Shown here: positions 25,511-30,028 of the stretch, one piece after another
Position numbering within the stretch: the stretch's first letter is position 1
How the letters are laid out: each line of letters begins with the position of its first letter
Source of the DNA: Natronorubrum tibetense GA33
GTDB taxonomy: Archaea; Halobacteriota; Halobacteria; Halobacteriales; Natrialbaceae
DNA: 64,000 nucleotides
Reading direction: 5' to 3'
NCBI RefSeq assembly: GCF_000383975.1
Contig: NZ_KB913017.1
Location: forward strand, 1 to 64,000
The notes under the pieces: generated by a model
What the model saw: the letters and a program-made list of their open reading frames with translations, nothing else
Database searches by the model: none
Told to the model about the DNA's origin: nothing
Position numbers and translations under genes: made by a program

Positions 25511-25643
25511 ACAGAATATGCGAGCCATAACAATAGGGGATCATGGTATCTGATCGCACGTGGTTCCCGTTCCCCACATCGCGGTCGATCGATCCCGTTC
25601 CATCGATCGCCCGTACCTCGAGGAACGGCCACGAGAGACAGCT

Positions 25644-26810
25644 ATGAAACTCGCACTCATCGGATTCGGTCAGGCAGGCGGGAAAGTAGTCGACCAATTT
25701 CTGGCGTACGACGACGAGATCGATGGCGGCTTCGTCGAGAGCGGACTCGCGGTCAACACCGCGACGACGGACCTCCAGGGTCTCGAGCACGTCGCCGACG
25801 AGAACCGGGTCTGCATCGGGCAGGCGCGCGTCAACGGCCACGGCGTCGGTGCCGACAACGAACTCGGCGCTGAGGTCGCGGAAGCGGATATCGACGAGAT
25901 CCAACACGCGATAGATCGAATTCCGACCCACGAGGTCGACGCGTTCCTCGTCGTCGCCGGCATGGGCGGCGGCACCGGCTCCGGGGGCGCACCTGTCCTC
26001 GCGAAACACCTGAAGCGGATCTACACGCAACCCGTCTACGGGCTCGGAATTCTGCCGGCGACTGACGAGGGCGGCATCTACACGCTCAACGCGGCCCGCT
26101 CGTTCCGGACGTTCGTTCGTGAAGTCGACAACCTGCTCGTCTTCGACAACGATGTCTGGCGCAGCGCCGGCGAATCCGTCGAGGGCGGTTACGACCGGAT
26201 CAACCGCGAGATCGTCGAACGATTCGGCCTGTTGTTCGCCGCGGGCGAGGTCGGCCACGGCGACCACGTCGCCGAGAGTGTGGTCGACTCCTCCGAGATT
26301 ATCAACACGCTCTCGGGCGGCGGCATCTCGACGATCGGCTACGCGACCGAGACCGTCGAAACGGACGACGGCGGCCTCTTTTCGTCGTTCACCGGGAGCG
26401 ACGACGACTTCGACGATGGCAGCGCAACCAATCGACTGACCAGTCTCGTCCGCAAGGCGACGCTGGGGCGGCTCACCCTCTCGTGTGACGTCAGCAGCGC
26501 GGATCGCGGTCTGGTCGTCGCGACCGGACCACCACGGAAGTTAAACCGCAAGGGCGTCGAACGCGGTCGTCAGTGGCTCGAGGACGAGACGGGAAGCATG
26601 GAGATCCGCGGCGGCGACTACCCGATCACTGGCGGTGACGAGGTTGGCGCGATCGTCCTCCTCTCGGGCGTGACGGACATCCCCCGTATCGATCAGCTTC
26701 AGCAGGTCGGAACCGAAGCCAAGGAGACGACCGAAGAGGTCCGGGCCAGCGCCGAAGACGAGTTTGCGTCGCTCGTCGACACGGGCGGCGAACTCGACGC
26801 GCTCTTTTGA
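25644..26810 (+). CDS. cetZ: CetZ tubulin-like cytoskeletal GTPase
   Basis: A 388-residue member of the tubulin/FtsZ superfamily, CetZ branch, which controls haloarchaeal cell shape and rod development. It begins MKLALIGFGQAGGKVVDQFL and has the GTP-binding tubulin signature VVAGMGGGTGSGGAPVLA (about 108-125). The T7 loop region (synergy loop with catalytic acidic residues) is around RFGLLFAAGE/NLLVFDNDVWR (about 165-205). FtsZ is normally about 380 residues; CetZ lacks the FtsZ C-terminal peptide, as here. Start at ATG 25644, because the upstream 28 codons are not conserved. Confidence 0.95.
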   Translation: MKLALIGFGQAGGKVVDQFLAYDDEIDGGFVESGLAVNTATTDLQGLEHVADENRVCIGQARVNGHGVGADNELGAEVAEADIDEIQHAIDRIPTHEVDAFLVVAGMGGGTGSGGAPVLAKHLKRIYTQPVYGLGILPATDEGGIYTLNAARSFRTFVREVDNLLVFDNDVWRSAGESVEGGYDRINREIVERFGLLFAAGEVGHGDHVAESVVDSSEIINTLSGGGISTIGYATETVETDDGGLFSSFTGSDDDFDDGSATNRLTSLVRKATLGRLTLSCDVSSADRGLVVATGPPRKLNRKGVERGRQWLEDETGSMEIRGGDYPITGGDEVGAIVLLSGVTDIPRIDQLQQVGTEAKETTEEVRASAEDEFASLVDTGGELDALF

Positions 26811-27302: not shown

Positions 27303-27701
27303 CGAGTCGGCAACTCCCTGGCGACTCGTCGTCGACCTGTTCAGCGATGCCGAGGGAATTCAGGCTCCGTTCGGTGGCGGTGGGGCGGCCGCTCGCTGTC
27401 GGCACCTCGAACGGGACGGATCGTCGGTCGAATGAGGGGTAATTCGAGCAGTTATCAGTCCGTCAGACACTGCTATCGGAACTGAAACGAGATGTTGAAT
27501 CGCGATTGCTACCGATCTAATACCCCGGACGGCACGCGGTAATCGTCTCATTACGGCCGTCTTACTCGATGGCATTGACAGTGCATAATTATCAAAAATA
27601 TTGTTATTCGTGGTAAGAAGAGTATAACGAAACCCAATATAACCAACTGGTCGAATATGCGAAGTGAGAGACACTCGACCCGGGCATCGACACCGTCACG
27701 A
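27303..27701. other. intergenic, promoter signals only
   Basis: About 400 bases between divergent genes. AT-rich around 27575-27650, with the TATA-like CAATATAACC at 27635-27644 that fits a start at 27702. Nothing else with coding character is seen. Confidence 0.5.
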
Positions 27702-27851
27702 ATGCGGCGCGCACTCGAGTCGGTGTTCCGCCGAAGCGAGGGGCGAACGGTCATCGAGGAGTGCCGGCGGTGTGGAACGACCCTCGAGTCGGGCGAGCCG
27801 GAGTGTCCGGCCTGTGGCCGCGACGATATCGTGAAGTACCACCTCGAGTGA
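27702..27851 (+). CDS. small zinc-ribbon protein
   Basis: A 49-residue protein with two CxxC pairs, CRRC (about 23-26) and CPAC (about 37-40), in a zinc-ribbon arrangement, preceded by a helix (MRRALESVFRRSE). I chose ATG 27702 because the TATA-like CAATATAACC at 27635 puts the transcription start near 27662, after the other ATG at 27657. Such proteins often act in protein or RNA contacts; the role is unknown. Confidence 0.6.
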   Translation: MRRALESVFRRSEGRTVIEECRRCGTTLESGEPECPACGRDDIVKYHLE

Positions 27852-27902: not shown

Positions 27903-28601
27903 TCACTCGAGCGGAAGCGCACTCGTATCGATCGCATCCCGACGACCGTCCAGCACTGCGAAGCGCTCGTTACGTCGGGACTCGAGCCAGTAGAGCAACC
28001 GTTCGGCCCACTCGAGTTTGCGGGCTTTCGTCGGCTCCACGGTGGGGTCGTCCAGGTCCCAGCCGACGAAGACGAGACGAGCTGCCCCCAGGTGGTCGGC
28101 GAGGAACGCCGCCCGGTCGCCGTCGGTGAACCCGCCGAAATTCTCGACGGGACCGCGGGGTGCGGCCTGCGTCGTGGGGAGTACGAACTCGTCGGTACAG
28201 TCGGGGACGACGGCACGAACTGCCGGGAGGTTGTCGCCGTGTGCGTGGACCGCGACCGGAACCCCCGCGTCGGTCAGTCGACGAACGGTGTCGGGGTTTT
28301 TGTCGAGGTCAGTTACCATGCAGTCGACGCGGATCCCGTGGTCAGCGAGCACATCGGCTGCCGTCGACGCCGCGAAGACGACATCGGCTCCGCGTGCTCG
28401 CTCGAGCGACGTGTCGTCATCAAGCGAAGGACCAGCGCCGGCGACCGCCACCGTCGCGTCGCGAGCGGCCGGAAGTCGCTCTCGGTCGAATCCGTCGGTC
28501 AGCGAGGCCAGCACGTCGCGCGCTCGCTCGTCACCGGCACGGTCGTAGCCGAAATCGGCCAGAATCGCCTCGTAGACTGGCTTCCACTCGTCGAACTCCA
28601 T
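27903..28601 (-). CDS. mptE: 6-hydroxymethyl-7,8-dihydropterin pyrophosphokinase, archaeal type
   Basis: A 232-residue MptE-like enzyme that transfers pyrophosphate from ATP to 6-hydroxymethyl-dihydropterin, the step before dihydropteroate in folate or methanopterin synthesis. It is unrelated to bacterial FolK. Key blocks are TVAVAGAGPSLDDD (about 49-62), RVDCMVTDLDKNPDTV (about 90-105) with the Asp pair, HAHGDNLPAVR (about 118-128) and NFGGFTDGDRAAFLADHLGA (about 157-176). It lies downstream of folP on the same strand, which supports a shared pterin pathway. Confidence 0.94.
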   Translation of the reverse strand: MEFDEWKPVYEAILADFGYDRAGDERARDVLASLTDGFDRERLPAARDATVAVAGAGPSLDDDTSLERARGADVVFAASTAADVLADHGIRVDCMVTDLDKNPDTVRRLTDAGVPVAVHAHGDNLPAVRAVVPDCTDEFVLPTTQAAPRGPVENFGGFTDGDRAAFLADHLGAARLVFVGWDLDDPTVEPTKARKLEWAERLLYWLESRRNERFAVLDGRRDAIDTSALPLE

Positions 28602-28740
28602 ACTCGAGATGCGGTGTGGAGTCGTATCTGTATTCGGGATTCGACGTCGGAAGCCGTAGTCGACCTACGACGGCACTCGAACAGCCACTGCTACTCCACT
28701 CGAGTTGTCACTCATCGGCGTAGTTCTACAATAATTTCGT

Positions 28741-28825
28741 GTTGTGGGCCGGGGGTCGCCTCCAAAGTACCCCTACCCGGGAGGCCGCCCGGCGTCCACT
28801 TGCCCTTTTCGAAGCCTCCGGCATA
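28741..28825 (-). ncRNA. candidate structured RNA or leader between folP and mptE
   Basis: A GC-rich 85-base island. Two nested perfect stems are formed: GCCGGG (28748-28753) with CCCGGC (28788-28793), and GCCTCC (28758-28763) with GGAGGC (28780-28785). On the minus strand it lies after the folP stop and about 140-220 bases before the mptE start. An alternative is a 31-codon basic reading frame on the minus strand starting at an ATG near 28822. The island is unlike the surrounding sequence, but no known riboswitch class is recognised. Conservation tests are needed to prefer one reading. Confidence 0.4.
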
Positions 28826-28834
28826 AGCTTTCTC

Positions 28835-30028
28835 TTACCTCAGCATCGCCGCTAGCGAGTCGGCTAGAGCGCTTAGGTTGCTGTTTTCGTCGCGTAGCTG
28901 GTCTGATACGTCTGAAATTGCGGTTGTCGATCCCAGAACCAGTAACCGATCATTGTCAACACAGTACACGTCGGCATCGTACTCCGCGATGAGCGACGTG
29001 AACCGAACGCGATCGTCGGACTCGAGTCCGACAATCTCGACGGCCAGTGCCGACCAGTCGTCGGCAACCGTCGGATCGATGTCGCGCTCTGCTAGGTGGG
29101 TCCGAAGATCGCGACTCGAGTGGACGTCCAACCGGGAGACCGATAGTTCGCCGCGACTGTCGCTCGAGCGCTCGGTGAACGCGTTTCCGATCAGCGCCGC
29201 ATCGCGCGTTTCGGCGACATCGTGGGTTCGGATTACGTGTGCGCCGCGCTCGACGGCCAGCGACGTGGCCGCGAGACTAACCGGCAATCGTTCTTCGGTC
29301 TCGCGCCCCGCGATTTCGCCGAGGAAGTTCTTCCGGTTGATCGAGACCAGCGTGGGCTGTCCGAGCGCACGGAACTCGCGGAGTCGGCGGAACGTCTCCC
29401 GGTCGTCCTCGAGCGTCTGGGCTTCGCTCCAGCCGCCGAACGCCGGATCGACGATCGTCTTGTCGGTCAGGCCGTTCTGTTTCAGGGCCTCGTACACCTG
29501 ATCGACGTAGTCGGCCTGAGCTGCCCACTCAGGAGACGTTCGGGCGGCCCAGTCGGTCTCTTCGACCGCACCGGGTCGCTCGAGATCCGGCGGACTCGCC
29601 ATCTTCGCGACGGCGACGTCGTACTCCTCACAGACGACCGGCATTTCCGGATCGGCAAAGCCCGCGATGTCGTTGACCATGTCGAACCCCCGGGAGAGCG
29701 CTTCGTCGGCCACCTCCGCGTACCGCGTCTCGATCGAGTAGATCGCGTCTCCGGAGACACTCTCGATCGTCTCGAGCGCAACGTGGAGTCGCTCGAGTTC
29801 CTCATCGGCCGAGAGCACGTCGAACCGTTTGTTCGCCGACTCGAGGCCGATATCGACGATGTCGGCCCCCTGGTCGATGAGTTCCTCGTCGACGTATCGA
29901 GCGGCGTCGCTGGGATCGTCAAAGACGCTTGGATCGTACGGGGACTCCTCGCTGACGTTCAACACGCCCATGATCCGGGGCGGATAATCGTCACCGATCC
30001 CCAGCCCCGCCGCGTCGACACTGTTCAT
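28835..30028 (-). CDS. folP: dihydropteroate synthase with C-terminal extra domain
   Basis: A 397-residue protein. Residues 1-285 form the DHPS TIM barrel: PPRIMGVLNVSEESPYDPSV, GADIVDIGLESANKRFD, IETRYAEVADEALSRGFDMVN, TLVSINRKNFLGEIAGRE and HVIRTHDVAETRDA. It joins hydroxymethyl-dihydropterin pyrophosphate with p-aminobenzoate. Residues 290-397 are an added domain, longer than the ~280-residue bacterial enzyme. I start at ATG 30028, aligned to homologues. Confidence 0.94.
   Translation of the reverse strand: MNSVDAAGLGIGDDYPPRIMGVLNVSEESPYDPSVFDDPSDAARYVDEELIDQGADIVDIGLESANKRFDVLSADEELERLHVALETIESVSGDAIYSIETRYAEVADEALSRGFDMVNDIAGFADPEMPVVCEEYDVAVAKMASPPDLERPGAVEETDWAARTSPEWAAQADYVDQVYEALKQNGLTDKTIVDPAFGGWSEAQTLEDDRETFRRLREFRALGQPTLVSINRKNFLGEIAGRETEERLPVSLAATSLAVERGAHVIRTHDVAETRDAALIGNAFTERSSDSRGELSVSRLDVHSSRDLRTHLAERDIDPTVADDWSALAVEIVGLESDDRVRFTSLIAEYDADVYCVDNDRLLVLGSTTAISDVSDQLRDENSNLSALADSLAAMLR

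Follow-up and report, generated by a model that had tools for sequence, protein, structure and literature searches.

A conserved hairpin between folP and mptE of haloarchaea, a candidate autonomous structured RNA

In Natronorubrum tibetense GA33, two pterin genes, folP and mptE, flank an 85-base GC-rich interval (28741-28825), which raises the question of what a stretch of this kind encodes. A sequence-only reading of the locus proposed either a new leader RNA that senses a pterin or folate, or a tiny protein. The window considered here is the first 64,000 nt of contig NZ_KB913017.1, and all coordinates refer to it unless another site is named. In published surveys, haloarchaeal sRNAs are poorly conserved and structured leaders are atypical (PMC3956466, PMC4983044). 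Against this background, a covarying RNA that is held at one locus throughout an order, and whose tip recurs on further RNA genes, would give experiments on RNA-based regulation in archaea a concrete starting point.

The hairpin and its conservation

The 85-base interval is made up of a promoter-like box and the spacer that follows it (together 28800-28834) and, behind these, the hairpin of the RNA (Table 1). The hairpin, GTGGACGCCGGGCGGCCTCCCGGGTAGGGGTACTTTGGAGGCGACCCCCGGCCCAC, folds into a rod with a minimum free energy (MFE) of -34.7 kcal/mol and has the layout GUGG-AC-GCCGGG-CG-GCCUCC-C-GGGUAGGGGUAC-UUU-GGAGGC-GACC-CCCGGC-CCAC. The sequence-only reading was right about the nested perfect stems, which share the minus strand with folP and mptE; the basal stem P1a, which that reading lacked, adds four pairs, and its GTGG arm is directly followed by a conserved 2-nt bulge. 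In the tip, a GUA/UAC pairing closes a GGGG loop, and this tip has a single site within the window when up to one mismatch is allowed. The impression of a GC-rich island unlike its flanks is also borne out, the hairpin having 77% GC against 53-55% in the flanks and 68% in the full interval.

Table 1. Features of the folP-mptE locus, in window coordinates.
Feature	Position	Strand	Evidence
Structured RNA (predicted), three-part hairpin, 56 nt	28744-28799	-	MFE, covariance-model matches, covariation
P1a basal stem, GTGG with CCAC	28796-28799 with 28744-28747	-	
P1b outer stem, 5' arm GCCGGG	28788-28793	-	sequence; partners covary
P1b outer stem, 3' arm CCCGGC	28748-28753	-	sequence; partners covary
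P2 inner stem, 5' arm GCCTCC	28780-28785	-	partner-swap test
P2 inner stem, 3' arm GGAGGC	28758-28763	-	partner-swap test
Apical tip GGGUAGGGGUAC, near-invariant	28767-28778	-	35 diverse loci aligned
Promoter-like box GAGAAAGCTTAT, BRE/TATA type	28823-28834	-	nearly invariant in relatives
folP, dihydropteroate synthase, upstream	28835-30028	-	TIGR01496 178 bits, PF00809
mptE-like 6-hydroxymethylpterin diphosphokinase, downstream	27903-28601	-	PF01973 72 bits
TTATTG, TATA-like box of predicted mptE promoter	28729-28734	-	conserved ~10 nt past hairpin
AGTGAC element near predicted mptE transcription start	28707-28712	-	

Taken from a single sequence, the case that this fold is not due to chance is modest: its stability has a z-score of -2.1, 6 of 200 shuffled sequences are equally stable, and about 20 further perfect stems of the nested 6+6 bp kind occur in the window. 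Conservation across the family and the order, together with covariation of its arms, nevertheless shows that this minus-strand hairpin is real and goes well beyond chance. When a 151-base probe was run against the Natrialbaceae, 123 of 125 genomes gave a match, and all but one of these a single match. With a covariance model (R1) the element was found in 325 of 392 sampled Halobacteriales genomes, belonging to 75 of 95 genera, nearly always in one copy; Halobacterium salinarum, Natrialba, Natrinema, Halorussus and Halonotius are among the carriers. A hairpin-only model (R2) run on the rest of the phylum gave no match outside the order (48 of 295 genomes, all Halobacteriales), and no hairpin match was obtained in the viral contigs scanned. 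Entire genera are without the element, which is therefore not essential; such natural losses, together with its presence in Halobacterium salinarum (L248), make experiments practical. The pattern shared throughout the order is GAGAAARCTTATRCC, a spacer, and then TGGAAGCCGGAAGGGC-[P2]-CGGGTAGGGGTAC-[P2']-GCCAYTCCGGCYCA.

When loci were folded individually, the main stems of the rod were recovered in all 44. GC, AT and CG pairs of P1 are exchanged between genomes, and in divergent members the stem is rebuilt as GCTGAC/GTCGGC (L118), GCCCAG/CTGGGC (L127) or GTCGA/TCGAC (L132). An arm-swap test was performed on 57 loci of less than 85% identity, whose 3' arms were exchanged between genomes. Own arms reached -29.3 kcal/mol and swapped 3' arms -22.4 +/- 0.5 kcal/mol, a value as low as the former being found in none of 2000 permutations; the swap leaves some relatedness between loci, and the thinning of the sample together with the size of the effect makes chance unlikely. 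The corresponding partner swap for P2 gave 5.55 versus 4.70 contiguous pairs (0 of 1000). The tip is nearly unchanging, and two of the rare changes in it (L049, L055) preserve the GUA/UAC pairing through G-U pairs. The element therefore has a conserved, covarying fold of the kind seen in aptamers. Covariation and sequence conservation in relatives, on which the sequence-only reading had made its leader-RNA idea depend, were both found.

Known RNA families and related systems

None of 4227 Rfam models gave a relevant match in this region of the window or in the relatives, even at E <=5, and a literature search with the tip sequence returned no haloarchaeal paper that prints it. This result, the order-wide conservation and the compensatory changes uphold the proposal of a new structured RNA outside the known families. 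Archaeal H/ACA and C/D guide RNAs are likewise small and structured, often with promoters of their own. As an H/ACA guide the hairpin was rejected, its internal loop being only a few nt, with no pseudouridylation pocket, and the ACA not being strictly kept (ATA, AAT, GAC and others occur in relatives); as a C/D guide it was rejected because the C box RUGAUGA and the D box CUGA are absent from the 56 nt. An antisense role towards rRNA was also set aside, the complementarity being only short and scattered in a comparison where most of the 23S gene lies outside the window, as was a resemblance between the tip and part of the 16S (GGGGTAC and GGGTAGG, near positions 611-629), in which the order differs. 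The rRNA genes of the window, with a tRNA, occupy positions 1-2368 on the minus strand, at the start of the contig.

The intergenic sRNAs of Haloferax volcanii (PMC3956466), such as sRNA132 (PMC6560208), are likewise encoded by short intergenic RNA genes with their own basal promoters, and autonomous regulatory roles have been proposed for them. In the survey of that species, 22 of 27 sRNAs were confined to H. volcanii (PMC3956466), whereas the present hairpin is order-wide and conserved in structure, with a tip that recurs. It may equal one of the conserved H. volcanii sRNAs, H225.2R or hts10 (PMC3956466), beside which it is set by description and not by coordinates. Halite metatranscriptomes contain itsRNAs of Halobacteria, which are intergenic, short and conserved and have no assigned function, one of them being a 69-nt RNA of Halococcus (PMC7002113); the hairpin RNA, likened to them by description and not by sequence, may have been seen before among them without being recognised. 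Riboswitches and structured leaders, including the tetrahydrofolate (THF) riboswitches in Rfam, share with the element a conserved structured RNA that adjoins folate-pathway genes and, in some lineages, probably lies within the mptE leader. In contrast to these systems, the hairpin has no Rfam match, is placed upstream of a separate predicted mptE promoter in most lineages, and has copies with no gene behind them.

Promoters, neighbouring genes and recurrence of the tip

The promoter-like box abuts the stop codon of folP. Its motif GAGAAARCTTAT fits the haloarchaeal BRE/TATA type, judged by the published promoter consensus TTWT/CGAAA (PMC4983044). Of 144 loci scored, 141 have 24 nt between TTAT and the hairpin, in a spacer of variable sequence. 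A start at the first base of the hairpin would be expected at about such a distance, and the RNA is predicted to begin near 28799. The sequence evidence thus points to a basal promoter of its own at a fixed distance, as in an sRNA gene. Just behind the TATA-like box, at 28808-28822, RCCGGA.GC is conserved beyond the needs of a plain spacer. The ATG near 28822, at which a tiny basic protein had been suggested to start, overlaps the end of this box (28822-28824) and lies upstream of the predicted RNA start. Of 144 relatives, 47 have ATA in its place, and no Pfam family matches the 32-aa frame; the tiny protein was therefore abandoned.

Of 170 loci, 168 have mptE downstream of the hairpin in the same orientation, and folP was recognised upstream in 152. 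In most Natrialbaceae the mptE box follows the hairpin after about 10 nt, with AGYRRC 22 nt further on in most; 44 of the 53 long-gap loci having both elements show this 22-nt distance. Most loci in which mptE starts 40-48 nt past the hairpin have a TTWT box in front of the ATG, at a distance of 31-38 nt (31-34 in the majority). Such an arrangement suggests that mptE is usually under its own, near-leaderless promoter. Since this box is downstream of the hairpin, the main mptE mRNA of most lineages should lack the hairpin. In Halorussus, Halosegnis and their relatives, mptE starts 12-26 nt past the hairpin with no TATA-like box between, which leaves two options, a hairpin within the mRNA or read-through of folP. 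The proposed mptE leader finds partial support: the geometry calls for it in a few lineages, and in most a TATA-like box lies between hairpin and mptE. A conserved U-run after the folP-mptE hairpin was not seen. Among 10 genomes examined for a weak or absent model match, five lack the element and yet keep folP and mptE adjacent, in four cases a few bases apart, which marks the gene pair itself as the conserved unit. Within the Natrialbaceae, the pair of box and AGYRRC (28707-28734) is retained even where mptE starts more than 100 nt further on, and some second-family hairpins (see below) have a comparable arrangement behind them.

The tip is not restricted to this locus. Its 13-base form occurs about 175 times in the 125 family genomes, against about a dozen occurrences of a reversed control, an excess that overstates the number of RNA copies because extra sites such as L155, L158, L161, L166, L168 and L175 are plain coding sequence. 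A second hairpin family consists of a promoter CCACAAAGCATAT followed by GGTGGACAGC-tip-TCGCNNTTTC-TGTCCACC, and GGTGG/CCACC is swapped for GGCGG/CCGCC among its members. It is present in 24 of 392 genomes, patchily distributed over Natrialbaceae and one other family, and N. tibetense GA33 itself (G000) has three sites (C1:596029, C3:218675 and C5:82956; L174, L176 and L177). The next gene behind these hairpins is mostly on the opposite strand (convergent). In a minimal third type (L136, L139, L157) the hairpin begins 24 nt past a TATA-like box, and a run of T5-T6 follows within about 15 nt in L157 (around 602) and L139. In L259 and L260, a second-family hairpin precedes, in the same orientation, a gene that presumably resembles archaeal 3-dehydroquinate synthase. 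The latter enzyme belongs to the shikimate pathway, which supplies pABA.

Possible roles of the hairpin RNA

With moderate confidence, we favour an autonomous structured RNA that sometimes also serves as the mptE leader. The same tip, again behind a promoter, caps other hairpins elsewhere in the genome that no gene follows, and such promoter-linked tips with no gene behind them argue for an autonomous RNA whose active surface is the tip. A small RNA gene between folP and mptE would then give a short, essentially single-hairpin RNA, probably of about 60-75 nt, which ends within or just past the T-rich stretch behind the hairpin and acts through its G-rich tip as a protein-binding RNA or a regulatory sRNA. 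The stems would form a scaffold, free to vary in sequence as long as pairing holds, and the function would reside in the near-invariant tip, most likely as a binding site of a haloarchaeal protein or by pairing through its GGGG loop. The unit might act in trans or titrate a protein. Where mptE starts directly behind the hairpin, the latter would double as the mptE 5' leader, by which expression of mptE may be tied to the same factor. A related but more tentative possibility is that the tip is an RNA-protein recognition module, carried by the 5'-terminal hairpins of independent transcripts and read by one shared haloarchaeal factor, in response to which the folP-mptE copy would switch folate synthesis; one hairpin would be fixed at folP-mptE throughout the order and the others would be patchy.

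Against an autonomous RNA stands the neighbourhood, since the order-wide succession of folP, element and mptE is the pattern expected of a cis-regulator; the absence of a conserved U-run behind the folP-mptE hairpin and the genera without the element were counted on the same side. That mptE stays the neighbour throughout favours a cis role, in which the hairpin would sit at the 5' end of mptE transcripts and mptE expression would be controlled by a pterin, a folate or a protein that binds the tip, a riboswitch included. This might be so, and the short distance between hairpin and start codon in Halorussus and Halosegnis agrees with it; however, we consider it doubtful as a general account, in view of the TTWT box behind the hairpin in most lineages, which predicts an mptE mRNA without the hairpin, and of the hairpins elsewhere that have the same tip and usually no same-strand gene behind. 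Structured leaders being atypical for Haloferax (PMC4983044) was also counted against it. Moreover, among the pairings looked at, none offered an expression platform with a conserved alternative fold: the only alternative partner seen is a second GGAGGC upstream of the hairpin, which lies past the TATA-like box, ahead of where the RNA is predicted to start, and varies in relatives. An antiterminator-like pairing with this partner was rejected for lack of conservation.

It is rather improbable that the hairpin is a boundary element, which together with the T-rich stretch would end or stabilise the folP mRNA and shield the mptE promoter. The position directly behind the folP stop codon and the order of GC hairpin and T-rich stretch would suit such a function, and genomes without the hairpin mostly have a compact operon with folP and mptE a few bases apart; but the fixed distance between promoter and hairpin, the near-invariant G-rich tip and the stand-alone copies with no fixed placement at gene ends are left unexplained. 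We give very little credence to a leaderless micro-ORF, or leader peptide, of 8 codons, which would open with an NTG where the RNA is predicted to start and close with the TAG inside the tip. Of 144 loci, 140 have such an NTG and 121 have it in the reading frame of the loop TAG; however, stem and tip by themselves fix its T and G as well as the TAG, and pairing is kept where the frame is broken (several lineages, e.g. L047, L050, L097, L098 and L184) or stops early (L039 and L096).

Elsewhere in the window, a 64-aa ORF at 27657-27851 has a weak zinc-ribbon match (PF13240) below the cut-off, and the protein encoded at 25560-26810 belongs to the FtsZ/tubulin family, scores below the FtsZ cut-off and is possibly a CetZ.
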